The notes beneath the pieces were generated by a model that was given only the letters and a program-made list of their open reading frames with translations, did no database searches and had not been told where the DNA came from. Positions 18,199 to 22,840 of a stretch of DNA of 64,000 nucleotides are shown here, in pieces; position 1 is the first letter of the stretch, and each line of letters begins with the position of its first letter. This stretch comes from Pseudomonas sp. DTU12.3 (GTDB lineage Bacteria > Pseudomonadota > Gammaproteobacteria > Pseudomonadales > Pseudomonadaceae). A program made the translations under genes and the position numbers. Location of the stretch: NCBI RefSeq assembly GCF_004124275.1, contig NZ_CP027218.1, positions 5,651,001-5,715,000 on the forward strand, in the 5' to 3' direction.

Positions 18199-18915
18199 TT
18201 ACACCACCATCGACACCGCCAGCGGCAGGAACACCGCCGTGGCCACGCCCATCAGACTCATCGCCAGCGCCGCGAAGGCGCCGCACTCATCACTTTCCTG
18301 CAATGCCACCGAGGTGCCGACCGCATGCGCGGTCATGCCCAGCGCCATGCCGCGCGCCTCGGGGCTGTGCACGCCGAGACGGGTGAGCAGCGCCGGGCCG
18401 AAGATCGCGCCGATCACCCCGGTGATCAACACGAACACCGCTGCCAGCGCCGCGACACCACCGATCTGCTCGGCCACCAGCATCGCAATCGGCGAGGTCA
18501 CCGACTTCGGCGCCATGGTCATCAGGATCATGTGATCAGCGCCAAACCACCAGCCGAGCAGCACGCCCATGCCGGTTGCAACCACCCCACCTATCACCAG
18601 CGTAGTAAAAATCGGCCAGAACAATTGGCGAATACGCCGCAGGTTGAGGTACAGCGGCACCGCCAGCGCCACGGTGGCAGGGCCGAGCAGAATGCTGAGG
18701 ATCTCGGTGCTCTTGCGGTACTCGGCGTAGGTCAGGCCACAGCCGACCAACACACCGATCACCAACAACATGGAGACCAACACCGGTTGCAGAAAGATCC
18801 AGCGGGTTTTTTCGAACGCCGCCAAGACCAATTGATAGGCACCGAGGGTGATGCCGATGCCGAACAGCGGATGATGGATTACAGAGGCCCAAGCGCCTTG
18901 CCAGTCGAAGAGCAT
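18199..18915 (-). CDS. lrgB: LrgB/CidB-family membrane protein
   Basis: A 238-residue polytopic protein with about seven hydrophobic segments and the LrgB signature LLGPATVALAVPLY, MAPKSVTSPIAMLVAEQIGG and GMTAHAVGTSVALQ. LrgAB/CidAB pairs control murein hydrolase export or, in newer work, pyruvate and small-metabolite transport. The start codon shares one base with the LrgA stop (TGATG-type join), so the pair is translationally coupled. The substrate cannot be read from the sequence. Confidence 0.93.
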   Translation of the reverse strand: MLFDWQGAWASVIHHPLFGIGITLGAYQLVLAAFEKTRWIFLQPVLVSMLLVIGVLVGCGLTYAEYRKSTEILSILLGPATVALAVPLYLNLRRIRQLFWPIFTTLVIGGVVATGMGVLLGWWFGADHMILMTMAPKSVTSPIAMLVAEQIGGVAALAAVFVLITGVIGAIFGPALLTRLGVHSPEARGMALGMTAHAVGTSVALQESDECGAFAALAMSLMGVATAVFLPLAVSMVV

Positions 18916-19277
18916 CAGGACTCCTCCGAACGGTGCGCGTGACGCTTGACCATGCGTTGCATCAGCACGCCGGCAAACGCCATCGACAGAATCAGCGACA
19001 CCACCAGCGCGCCGACAATCGCCCAGAAATCGGCGGCAATCGCCGTCGCATACACCATCACCCCGACTGCCGGCGGCACCAGCAACAGCGGCAGATAACG
19101 CAGCAGGCTGCCGGCCGCGAGATTCAGCGGCTCGCCGACTTCACCGCGAACGATCAGGAAGATCAGTAACAGCAGCAGACCGATGATCGGCCCCGGCAGC
19201 ACCGGCAACAACAAGTGATTGAGCGCCGTGCCGAGCAATTGAAACAGCACCAGCAGGGTCAGGCCACGTAGCAACAT
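18915..19277 (-). CDS. lrgA: LrgA/CidA-family holin-like protein
   Basis: A 120-residue membrane protein with four helices: LLVLFQLLGTALNHLLLPVLPGPIIGLLLLL carries the family's PGPIIG motif, and LPLLLVPPAVGVMVY is typical. Charges cluster at the C-terminus (MVKRHAHRSEES). It is the small partner of lrgB and first gene of the small operon, facing away from the MaoC gene. No lytSR-type regulator lies nearby. Confidence 0.92.
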   Translation of the reverse strand: MLLRGLTLLVLFQLLGTALNHLLLPVLPGPIIGLLLLLIFLIVRGEVGEPLNLAAGSLLRYLPLLLVPPAVGVMVYATAIAADFWAIVGALVVSLILSMAFAGVLMQRMVKRHAHRSEES

Positions 19278-19470: not shown

Positions 19471-19926
19471 ATGCCCTATGTTCCAGTTGCAGAGCTCAAA
19501 GATTATGTCGGCAAGGAACTCGGACGTTCCGAATGGCTCACCATCGATCAGGAACGCATCAACCTGTTCGCCGAAGCCACCGGTGATTATCAGTTCATTC
19601 ACGTCGACCCGGTCAAAGCCGCGCAAACACCATTTGGCAGCACCATTGCCCACGGTTTCCTGTCGTTGTCGCTGATCCCGAAATTGATGGAAGACATCCT
19701 CATCCTGCCGCAAGGCGTGAAGATGGTGGTCAACTATGGTCTGGACAGCGTGCGTTTCATCCAGCCAGTGAAGGTCAATTCGAAAGTTCGCCTGAAGGTC
19801 GATCTGGGCGAAGTGACCGAGAAAAAACCTGGCCAGTGGCTGCTCAAAGCGACCGCAACGCTTGAGATAGAAGGTTCGGACAAACCGGCCTACATCGCCG
19901 AGCCATTGTCGCTCTGCTTCGTCTAA
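19471..19926 (+). CDS. MaoC-family (R)-specific enoyl-CoA hydratase-like protein
   Basis: A 151-residue single hot-dog domain. The start at ATG 19471 follows an AAGGAG site at a good distance, which excludes the longer frame from 19402. The hydratase-2 motif EATGDYQFIHVDPVKA contains the catalytic Asp and His, followed by FGSTIAHGFLSLSL. Members hydrate enoyl-CoAs for polyhydroxyalkanoate or branched lipid metabolism, or dehydrate hydroxyacyl-CoA in the reverse direction. It is monocistronic; the substrate is not determined by context. Confidence 0.9.
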   Translation: MPYVPVAELKDYVGKELGRSEWLTIDQERINLFAEATGDYQFIHVDPVKAAQTPFGSTIAHGFLSLSLIPKLMEDILILPQGVKMVVNYGLDSVRFIQPVKVNSKVRLKVDLGEVTEKKPGQWLLKATATLEIEGSDKPAYIAEPLSLCFV

Positions 19927-19975
19927 ACGTTCCGGATGCGAAGCAGCGCACGCTGTTTCGCGTCACCTCTCTATT

Positions 19976-19988
19976 TATGCGACGCATA
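19976..19988. promoter_or_regulatory. Small perfect palindrome upstream of the MORN-protease gene
   Basis: TATGCG-A-CGCATA lies 41 bp before the start of the MORN-protease gene, near where a promoter is expected. It could be an operator; no regulator is known for it, and palindromes this short occur by chance. Confidence 0.3.
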
Positions 19989-20028
19989 GCTGCGGCATAC
20001 TCGGTCGCCTAATTGCCCGGATCCCGCT

Positions 20029-21756
20029 ATGCGCTCACTCGCTTCTCTTGCACCCATTGCCCTGACCTTGATGCTCACCGCTTGCGGCGACGGCGAATCA
20101 CTGTTGCCGCCAGATGCGCGCCTGCCGGACGGCGGTCGCTATCGCGGTGAACTGGTCAACGGCTTGCTGCAAGGCCAGGGGCGCGTCGACTACCCCAACG
20201 GCAGCTGGTACGCCGGCCAGTTCGACAAGGGCCAATGGCACGGTCAGGGCGAATGGCATGGCAGCAATGGCGAAGTCTATCGCGGGCAATTTCAGCAAGG
20301 CTTGTTCGATGGCCAAGGCAGTCTGACCACCAACGCCAGCAGTTACACCGGGGGCTTCAAGCAAGGCCGGCGCGAAGGCGAAGGCACGCTGAAAGAAAAC
20401 GCCATGACCTACCGTGGCGAGTTCAAGGCTGACCAGTATTCCGGCCTCGGCCGTCTCGAGATGGACGACGGCAGTTCCTATCAAGGCCAGTTCGCCCACG
20501 GCAAACCCAACGGCGAAGGCCAGCGTGGCGACTCCAGCGGCAACTCGTTCAGCGGGCATTTCGTCAACGGTCAGCTGGAAGGCAACGGCACGTTCAACAG
20601 CGCCGACGGCGACATCTACGTCGGCGGTTTCAAGAACAATCAATTGCACGGCAAGGGTCGCTACGAAAACGCTGACGGCGACGTTTGGCTCGGCCAGTTC
20701 AAGGAAGGCGCGCTGACCGGCAAGGGTGAGTTGATCGGCGCCGACGGCAGCCATTACATCGGCGCCTTCAACGACTGGCGCTTCAGTGGGCCGGGCCGTT
20801 TGAATCTGTCTGATGGCAGTTTCTACATCGGCGGTTTCGATAACGACAGCTACTCGGGGCGCGGCACTCTGGTGCTCACCGATGGCAGCGTCATGAGCGG
20901 CACCTGGATCAACGGCCAGCGCGTGCGCGATGCCGACGGCAAATTATTGCCCGACACCCTTGAACTCGGCTTGCTCGCTCAGGGCCGTCTGCTCGATGAC
21001 GCCTTGGCCGCCATCCCCGCGTCGACGCCAGCGGTTGAGCTGTACACCCTGACCCTCGGCGGCGACGGCAAGCAGAGCGTGTTCCTGCGTGAATCCGATT
21101 ACGTCGCCAACATGCTCAATACGCGCTTCGGCGCCTATGGCCAGATCCGTCTGGTCAACCACCGCGATCACTTGGCCGACCGGCCGATGGCCACCCGCGA
21201 GAACCTGCGCCGCGCTGCGCAAGCCCTTGCTGAACGCAGCGGCCCGGAAGACTTGCTGTTCATCTACCTGACCAGCCATGGCACCGCCGAACATGAACTG
21301 GTGCTCGACCAGCCGCGCATGGAGCTGGCCGACCTGCCCGCCGATGAACTCGCCGCCGTGCTGGCGCCGCTGAAAAACCGCGACAAGATCATCGTGATCT
21401 CTTCGTGTTACTCCGGTGGTTTTATCCCGGCGCTGAAAGACGAACGCACCTTGATCATGACCGCCTCGCGCGCCGATCGGGTGTCCTTCGGTTGCTCGGA
21501 AGAAGCCAACTTCACCTATTTCGGCGACGCACTGTTCGCCCAGGCGCTGAACCAGACCGATGACCTGGAGCAAGCCTTCAAACTGGCCAAAGCCACCGTC
21601 GCCGAGCGTGAACTGGCGGACAATTTCGAAGCCTCGGAGCCGCAGATCTGGGCGCCAAAAACCGTACTCGCGCACTGGCAACTGCTGCGCAAACAGCAAG
21701 CAAGAAAAGCTTTGCAAAGTGCTGCGTTGAACGACGGAGCGGTAAAGAGCAACTAA
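20029..21756 (+). CDS. Lipoprotein with MORN repeats and a C13/caspase-like protease domain
   Basis: A 575-residue protein with signal peptide and lipobox (LMLTACGDG, Cys19), so it is exported and lipid-anchored. Residues about 35-305 hold eleven to twelve MORN repeats of 23 residues (pattern YxGxFxxGxxxGxGxxxxxdG). Residues about 340-545 look like a peptidase C13/caspase-like domain: a beta strand then TSHG gives the candidate His417, and VISSCYSGG gives the candidate Cys460, followed by MTASRADRVSFG. Bacterial MORN proteins often bind membranes or partners. The substrate and activator are unknown. The gene stands between a MaoC gene and an NAD(P)-binding protein 27 bp downstream, with which it may be transcribed. 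Base usage is like its neighbours. Confidence 0.85.
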   Translation: MRSLASLAPIALTLMLTACGDGESLLPPDARLPDGGRYRGELVNGLLQGQGRVDYPNGSWYAGQFDKGQWHGQGEWHGSNGEVYRGQFQQGLFDGQGSLTTNASSYTGGFKQGRREGEGTLKENAMTYRGEFKADQYSGLGRLEMDDGSSYQGQFAHGKPNGEGQRGDSSGNSFSGHFVNGQLEGNGTFNSADGDIYVGGFKNNQLHGKGRYENADGDVWLGQFKEGALTGKGELIGADGSHYIGAFNDWRFSGPGRLNLSDGSFYIGGFDNDSYSGRGTLVLTDGSVMSGTWINGQRVRDADGKLLPDTLELGLLAQGRLLDDALAAIPASTPAVELYTLTLGGDGKQSVFLRESDYVANMLNTRFGAYGQIRLVNHRDHLADRPMATRENLRRAAQALAERSGPEDLLFIYLTSHGTAEHELVLDQPRMELADLPADELAAVLAPLKNRDKIIVISSCYSGGFIPALKDERTLIMTASRADRVSFGCSEEANFTYFGDALFAQALNQTDDLEQAFKLAKATVAERELADNFEASEPQIWAPKTVLAHWQLLRKQQARKALQSAALNDGAVKSN

Positions 21757-21783
21757 GCTGAACAGTATCAAGGGAGAGACACT

Positions 21784-22425
21784 ATGTACTTGACGCCTCA
21801 GCACGTATTGCTTGCCGGAGCTACCGGTTTGACCGGTGAACATCTACTCGACCGTTTGCTCAACGAGCCGACGATTTCTCGCGTGCTCGCTCCTTCCCGC
21901 CGGCCATTGGCCGAGCATCCGCACCTGGAAAACCCGGTCGGCGATCCGCAGGCGTTCCTGCCGCAGCTCAGTGGCCGCGTCGATATCGCCTACTGCTGCC
22001 TCGGCACGACGATCAAACAGGCCGGCTCGGAAGCGGCGTTTCGTGCGGTGGATCTGGACATGGTCGTGGCGTTTGCCAAACGCGCGCGGGAGATGGGCGC
22101 GCGGCATCTGATCGTGATCAGTGCGATTGGCGCCGATCCGAAGTCGTCGGTTTTCTATAACCGGGTCAAAGGCGAAATGGAGCAGGCTTTGCGTGCGCAG
22201 GACTGGCCGCAACTGACCATTTGCCGACCTTCGCTGTTGTTGGGTGAACGCACGGAGCCGCGTCTGGCCGAACAGTTAGCCGGGCCGTTGTCGAAGCTGA
22301 TTCCGGGTAAATATCGCGGTATTGAAGCGTGCCAACTGGCGCGAGCGATGTGGCGGTTGGCGCTGGAAGAGCAGGATGGGGTGCGGGTGATCGAGTCGGA
22401 TGATTTGCGCAAGCTGGGCAAATAA
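21784..22425 (+). CDS. NAD(P)-binding Rossmann-fold protein (HTATIP2/YbjT-like atypical SDR)
   Basis: A 213-residue protein with the dinucleotide motif [14 protein letters not shown] at the N-terminus and [42 protein letters not shown] further on. The YxxxK pair is in [11 protein letters not shown]. This is the layout of atypical SDRs related to oxidoreductase HTATIP2/TIP30. The substrate is unknown; some relatives only sense NADP(H). The start follows a GGGAGAG site by 8 nt and lies 27 bp after the MORN-protease gene. A family-C REPIN follows. Confidence 0.88.
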
Positions 22426-22439
22426 AACCCCGGAACCTT

Positions 22440-22539
22440 GTGGCGAGGGGATTTATCCCCGTTCGGCTGCGCAGCAGTCGTCGCTGTTAAAATTTGGGGG
22501 GTGCTTCGCACCCCAACGGGGATAAATCCCCTCGCCACA
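22440..22539. repeat. REPIN-like inverted repeat, family C
   Basis: TGTGGCGAGGGGATTTATCC…CGTTCGG at one end and the exact complement (…GGGGATAAATCCCCTCGCCACA) at the other enclose about 50 bp that itself contains a smaller GGGGTGC-type palindrome. It separates two convergent genes. A second copy lies at 50157-50289. Confidence 0.9.
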
Positions 22540-22555
22540 GGGGGTGTGTGCGCTT

Positions 22556-22840
22556 CTACAATCCGCCTGTCGCCTGAAAACTCACGCCGATTACGGTGAG
22601 CAATGACAACGGTAACAACAGCGTATCAAGCAACGCACTTGCCGGCAGATCCACCCCCGGATAGCTCGGTGCCTCAGCCCCGAACCGGTCCATCGCGCAA
22701 CACCCGCCATTCATTACGTACAAATCCAGCCGCGTCCCGGAGTACACCACCGGCGCGCCCGGCTTGGCTGCGTCCAGCGTGCGCGCCGTCGCGCACCCGG
22801 TCAGTTGCAACGCCAGCAGCATCACCAACAGCTTATTCAT
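22556..22840 (-). CDS. YceK/YidQ-family lipoprotein
   Basis: A 94-residue protein with a lipobox ([11 protein letters not shown]), followed by [44 protein letters not shown], the standard YceK/YidQ pattern. One hydrophobic stretch near the C-terminus may contact the membrane. Function is unknown. The start overlaps the ubiX stop by 8 bp, so it forms the tail of an mpl-ubiX-yceK operon. Confidence 0.85.

Follow-up and report, generated by a model that had tools for sequence, protein, structure and literature searches.

In the window, that is, the whole stretch of 64,000 nucleotides that was analysed, the open reading frame 20029-21756 on the forward strand encodes a single-chain product of 575 amino acids, which carries a lipobox, MORN repeats and a peptidase C13 domain. 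The coordinates and strand given in the first-pass annotation were borne out by translation. The parts of the gene and the gene that follows it are listed here, each with the evidence on which it was placed.

20029..20085, forward strand: signal peptide and lipobox (MRSLASLAPIALTLMLTA followed by Cys19), mature N terminus CGDGE (translation)
20140..20892, forward strand: 11 MORN repeats, residues 38-288, a continuous beta-hairpin rod in the model (Pfam, repeat count, AlphaFold2)
20893..21018, forward strand: junction, residues 289-330, the last strands and one helix (AlphaFold2 model)
21019..21720, forward strand: peptidase C13 domain, residues ~331-564, caspase-haemoglobinase fold (Pfam, model, structure comparison)
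21277..21279, forward strand: codon of His417 (TSHG), catalytic dyad (192/192 domains)
21406..21408, forward strand: codon of Cys460 (SSCYSGG), catalytic dyad (192/192 domains)
21484..21495, forward strand: SFGC motif, Ser486-Cys489, lying on legumain SYAC with its S1 residue Ser216 (profile alignment)
21784..22425, forward strand: NAD(P)-binding protein (PF13460), 27 bp past the stop of the C13 gene (Pfam, locus survey)

At E <=0.001 this ORF is the only C13 match in the source genome (6.27 Mb, a single contig). On the opposite strand, upstream of the maoC-like and C13 genes, there is a pair at 18199-19277 which we take to be lrgB/lrgA-like. Beyond the NAD-binding gene the inverted arms GTGGCGAGGGGATTTATCCCC and GGGGATAAATCCCCTCGCCAC were observed at 22440-22545, presumably a REP/BIME-like element. 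Scans of 19880-22560 were uninformative both for promoters (no sigma-70-like site, 0.4 expected) and for terminators (one terminator-like site, 3.1 expected).

The C-terminal half had been described as a clan CD protease domain with a dyad of His417 and Cys460, and this description was upheld by the profile score, the predicted fold and the conservation of the dyad. Peptidase_C13 (PF01650) matched with 135.8 bits (cut-off 22.8, E=2.6e-39). AlphaFold2 was given the protein aligned with 26 homologues (27 sequences); the mean pLDDT was 93.6 and the pTM 0.61, from which we infer that the parts are well defined and that their mutual angle is less certain. In this predicted model the C13 domain matched metacaspase 4 (6w8r_B; Z 20.9, rmsd 2.6, 208 residues), legumain (4n6o_A; Z 20.6, rmsd 2.9, 205 residues) and a GPI-transamidase subunit (8imx_K; Z 19.2, rmsd 4.9, 216 residues), where matches less than 1 Z apart are ties and families missing from the match list are not thereby excluded. 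Peptide asparaginyl ligases were also among the structural matches. The first-pass annotation had named a model lacking the caspase-haemoglobinase fold, or the loss of the dyad in most homologues, as results that would speak against the assignment; instead the fold was found, and among 192 distinct domain sequences (>=150 bits, source copy included) His417, Cys460, Asp408, Ser486, Cys489, Glu528, Ser536 and Pro538 were invariant in all 192. The His-Cys spacing was measured on the rows at hand before the divergent genus copies L220-L237 were added, and amounts to 42-43.

Legumain, the asparaginyl endopeptidase of family C13, shares with this protein the Peptidase_C13 Pfam match, the fold (Z ~20), the HG and C motifs and an SxxC with an equivalent of Ser216. 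Since SFGC (486-489) aligns with legumain SYAC, the S1 residue Ser216 is retained as Ser486. Four residues of the legumain S1 pocket are named in PMC4357240, Asp231 among them; according to this source most work on legumain concerns a blood fluke, mammals and plants. The position of Asp231 corresponds to Asp500 of our protein and is variable: Asp is found in 99/115 genus rows, 8/28 other rows of the family and 6/49 rows outside it, Arg is the commonest residue elsewhere, and Asn, Glu, Lys, Gln and others also occur. Because of this variation asparagine specificity is not predicted. The profile alignment begins past the helix that bears the legumain S1 residues Arg44 and His45. According to the model the protease core is followed only by one helix (544-574) to the end of the chain, with no activation peptide or LSAM domain. 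Identity to legumain is ~17% in the structure comparison, and the MORN rod and the lipid anchor at the N terminus are further differences. By fold and score the protein is a member of family C13, standing outside legumain proper because the S1 Asp231 position is not conserved and LSAM is absent.

MORN repeats in a 23-residue tandem had been reported as well, and these are present (PF02493, 106.8 bits, cut-off 22.5, E=1.4e-31), but their number is 11 and not 12 and they span residues 38-288. The repeats start at residues 38, 61, 84, 106, 128, 151, 174, 197, 220, 243 and 266, two of them being 22 residues long. The N-terminal half is modelled as a series of beta-strands, and the best structural match of the rod is MORN1 (6t4d; Z 20.7, rmsd 2.0, 200 residues aligned). 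The sensing, possibly lipid-binding rod put forward in the first-pass annotation is a conjecture; the solved MORN structures matched include protein scaffolds and complexes with peptides or proteins (junctophilin-2 with a CaV1.1 peptide, MORN4 with Myo3a). Eukaryotic MORN1, junctophilin and MORN4 have the MORN fold in common with our protein and are scaffolds not known to carry this protease.

Eleven repeats were counted in 105/113 genus rows, in 17/28 rows from the other family genera and in four of the 19 MORN-bearing rows outside the family, where the range is 4-12. Fewer than 11 were found in 8/113 and 11/28 rows of the first two groups, some of which are truncated or frame-broken. Of 113 distinct genus rows, 100 have a distance of 398 residues from the lipid Cys to the His and four have 399; seven rows give other values and two cannot be read. 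Among the 28 rows of the other family genera, 17 show 398-399, seven differ and four cannot be read. By these counts the length of the rod is kept among close relatives without being an absolute ruler. A strict molecular ruler had been considered and was weakened by the rows with fewer repeats.

Export with a lipoprotein signal, the remaining structural claim of the first-pass annotation, is supported by the sequence. The lipobox stands at Cys19 as proposed (LTAC19), and it was recognised in 107/110 fetched genus loci, counted without deduplication; the N termini of the other three are unreadable, since L093 and L136 start at a contig end and L151 is masked or out of frame. The mature start CGDGE occurs in 100/111 readable distinct genus rows, and the other family genera most often have CGEGE (15/27 readable). 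Outside the family, inspection by eye revealed lipoboxes (e.g. L033, L045, L046, L052), uncleaved-looking N-terminal helices (L035, L171, L177, L185) and signal peptides (L034, L039), while other homologues without MORN repeats have 3-5 predicted N-terminal helices instead. L044 is one of the latter; read by eye, the alternation of its positively charged loops would put the protease outside the cytoplasm. The anchor types that were inspected fit an extracytoplasmic protease. Among 40 likely inner-membrane lipoproteins of P. aeruginosa, acidic residues are favoured in the five positions after the Cys (PMC6469965); such N-terminal sorting is a tendency, and the same source argues against a specific or strict signal. 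The CGDGE start agrees with this preference and would suggest, though not prove, the inner membrane.

The combination of C13 with an N-terminal membrane domain of 3-5 helices was observed in L032, L037, L038, L041, L042, L044, L047-L050, L053, L054 and others. No Pfam match was obtained in this multi-helix domain in the two that were tested (L196, L200), and a single-sequence structure prediction of L200, with a mean pLDDT of 45.6, was left out of the results.

A match was present in 199/199 sampled genomes of the genus. In wider samples, which overlap in genomes, C13 matches were obtained in 55/99 genomes and 11/19 genera of the family, 19/145 genomes of the order, 39/369 of the class (32 above the cut-off) and 62/398 of the phylum (59 above the cut-off). 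From 577 confirmed relatives the best 80 matches to the catalytic domain, every one of these 80 from Pseudomonas, were taken as the named loci, so the genus counts are biased to close relatives. The matches L056-L060 are weak and without the motif pattern; L056 (45 bits) belongs to the 193-domain set described below and lies outside the 192-domain set. Ten genus genomes with split alignments were re-examined, and three had an in-frame stop inside the match, so that the genus has at least three such copies and may have more. These copies are L220 (G116), L221 (G106) and L230 (G144), where decay or sequence error is possible.

Of 193 distinct domains of >=40 bits, 160 are joined to at least three MORN repeats and 19 to at least three predicted N-terminal helices, helices being called by our own hydropathy threshold; of the remainder 10 have one or two helices and four show none, a group that includes two truncated genus rows. 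MORN repeats occur in 113/115 genus rows, 28/28 other family rows and 19/49 rows outside the family. In a maximum-likelihood tree of 98 domains all 68 MORN rows fell within one clade of 73 members (support 98/84), and the MORN label required three changes against a shuffled mean of 26.0, although the bootstrap had not settled. This distribution is compatible with a history in which the MORN fusion was gained once and may have been lost twice. The lipoprotein-MORN-C13 architecture is real and far beyond chance.

Whether the neighbour at 21784 is always linked had been raised as a question, and the answer is no. The NAD(P)-binding gene comes next after the C13 gene in 80/80 named Pseudomonas loci and is adjacent in 12 of the 14 further family loci (12 from other genera, 2 from the genus; exceptions L213 and L219), and none of the 20 loci that lie beyond the family showed it, the sequence at one of these, L205, stopping shortly after the C13 gene. 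The MaoC gene lies upstream in 71/80 named loci, and three of the nine misses are contig ends (L093, L127, L136). LrgA/LrgB-like genes are within the stretch at 11/14 further family loci. Two of these loci, L210 and L218, keep the NAD-binding gene together with the C13 gene and have neither LrgAB nor the rest of the block in the fetched stretch. Outside the family, L199 and L200, which are related, have largely the same surroundings, and seven more gene families recur in 2-4 loci; among these 20 loci neither a constant partner nor a neighbour indicating a pathway was seen. The pair of C13 and NAD-binding genes is a candidate family-level operon and not a defining part.

On the basis of the proA-to-mpl gene order we take this gene to be of the PA4016 type, an identity by gene order alone. 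PA4016 of P. aeruginosa lies between PA4015 and PA4017 (PMC3406104). In that study one transposon insertion, carried in a delta-exoU background, lowered C. elegans killing and a second allele, in the wild-type background, did not; on this account the authors dropped the gene. The first-pass statement that no role had been described was therefore nearly right, apart from these transposon alleles with conflicting results in the gene that our gene order matches. PA4016 is also lowered in an envelope proteomics table (PMC7835679), which is weak evidence for location since the same part of the table also lists cytoplasmic enzymes, e.g. SucC and Icd.

Among bacterial C13 proteins the only knock-out phenotype found was that of AbrP of Acinetobacter baumannii, as related in reviews. 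Its knock-out, in a protein named as of the peptidase C13 family, raises membrane permeability and slows growth (PMC5346588, PMC10203620, PMC11615727); deletion also changes antibiotic susceptibility, about the direction of which the reviews disagree. Our protein is likened to AbrP by name and description, through the family and the effect on the envelope. A C13-family gene of A. baumannii counts as one marker of early exposure to polymyxin (PMC4872528). The joining of MORN repeats to a clan CD domain is already in print, since MORN-metacaspase proteins were tabulated in a metagenome survey (PMC4933709): six proteins of aquatic bacteria have a MORN stretch before the clan CD domain. Compared by description, these differ from ours in being named metacaspases (C14-type), in having 1-4 repeats and in that no lipoprotein signal is mentioned in the sections consulted. 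The sections of PMC3482391 consulted hold no mention of MORN. Among the open-access literature matches listed no title described a bacterial MORN-C13 protein, and no paper on the function of this protein was found there.

The protein has the look of a functional envelope protease. We give about an even chance to its being a scaffolded, lipid-anchored envelope processing protease of family C13, which in its logic would resemble LbcA-CtpA. In P. aeruginosa LbcA-CtpA, as in NlpI-Prc, a repeat-rich lipoprotein scaffold serves a periplasmic protease (PMC8764530); there a TPR protein and a serine protease act as separate chains with no homology to ours, so the analogy is one of logic only, and here the same logic would be realised by unrelated domains in one chain. 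The exported and lipid-anchored protein would remain envelope-bound, and the side of the inner membrane that faces the periplasm is its most probable place, since N-terminal membrane helices hold many of the homologues and the acidic start CGDGE is like that of P. aeruginosa inner-membrane lipoproteins. The MORN rod might space the protease off the membrane and might capture or align a partner or a substrate, and the protease would act by limited cleavage on a single envelope protein or on a small number of them, which may help to maintain envelope order. Against this reading count the PA4016 insertion phenotype that a second allele did not reproduce, the lack of a pathway-indicating neighbour outside the family, the variable length of the rod and the 30/49 homologues outside the family that have no MORN repeats. 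We put forward rather tentatively, as a doubtful extension, that the protein is a genus-wide one-chain analogue of LbcA-CtpA, where the rod would serve as an inbuilt adaptor for substrates, with a fixed reach, and periplasmic proteins would be processed at specific sites, or even transpeptidated, by the legumain-like domain. If true, the Gram-negative envelope would have a maturation pathway of legumain type.

An unlikely alternative, but the one that survives best, is a general periplasmic quality-control or scavenging peptidase of broad substrates, in which the MORN rod would be a mere spacer. The gene stands alone, with no conserved partner, outside the family; MORN is missing in 30/49 homologues there; and in nine pairs pN/pS was 0.013-0.166 for the MORN half and 0.028-0.111 for the C13 half, the MORN half being higher in 8/9. 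These values nevertheless mean that purifying selection acts on both halves, the MORN half itself included, which argues against a mere spacer, and each of the clan CD families shows a narrow P1 preference (PMC4357240, Table 2), which does not favour broad cutting.

Turning to other chemistries, it is very unlikely that the enzyme is a peptide ligase or transamidase joining a cleaved envelope protein to another amine, in the manner of GPI8/PIG-K and the plant asparaginyl ligases that share the fold. The GPI-transamidase catalytic subunit 8imx_K and the peptide asparaginyl ligases among the structural matches speak for such a role, but the legumain hydrolases (4n6o_A) match equally or better, and the fold cannot separate a ligase from a hydrolase. 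GPI8/PIG-K is similar in its C13-type fold and in being membrane-associated; it is not known to have a MORN rod, and Pseudomonas has no GPI anchors.

The analogy with caspases, together with the lrgA/lrgB-like genes nearby (11/14 family loci), could suggest a protease of regulated cell death or phage defence, a reading which we regard as highly improbable. The PADLOC caspase model matched with E=0.00018 and 18.8 bits, and the NCBIfam EACC1-associated caspase model (NF047832) with E=8.9e-9 and 35.1 bits, although the curated cut-off of 140 was not reached. Identity with either caspase was rejected, the likeness being at clan level only: the matches span the clan-wide domain and the NCBIfam score, significant by E-value, is far below the cut-off. 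Furthermore the gene is present in all sampled genus genomes, as a single copy in its own genome and in a conserved block, unlike a defence island, and the C13 gene keeps its NAD-binding neighbour at L210 and L218, where LrgAB is missing from the stretch. A catalytically dead scaffold would agree with the finding of no close homologue with demonstrated activity, but it is hardly credible, since His and Cys are kept in all 192 domains and stand at the spacing given above in the rows measured.

For the favoured reading, a scaffolded envelope processing protease, a conserved exported C13 relative on a MORN rod in 199/199 genus genomes would be a testable candidate for a specific envelope processing step, with a single predicted catalytic Cys available for mutation. 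The function of the rod should be separable from that of the enzyme, since there are natural homologues in which membrane helices replace the rod. Finally, L213 (G619) and L180 (G696) form a divergent lineage with 5-6 MORN repeats and VSHG / WFSKAL contexts, and they stand together in the tree.
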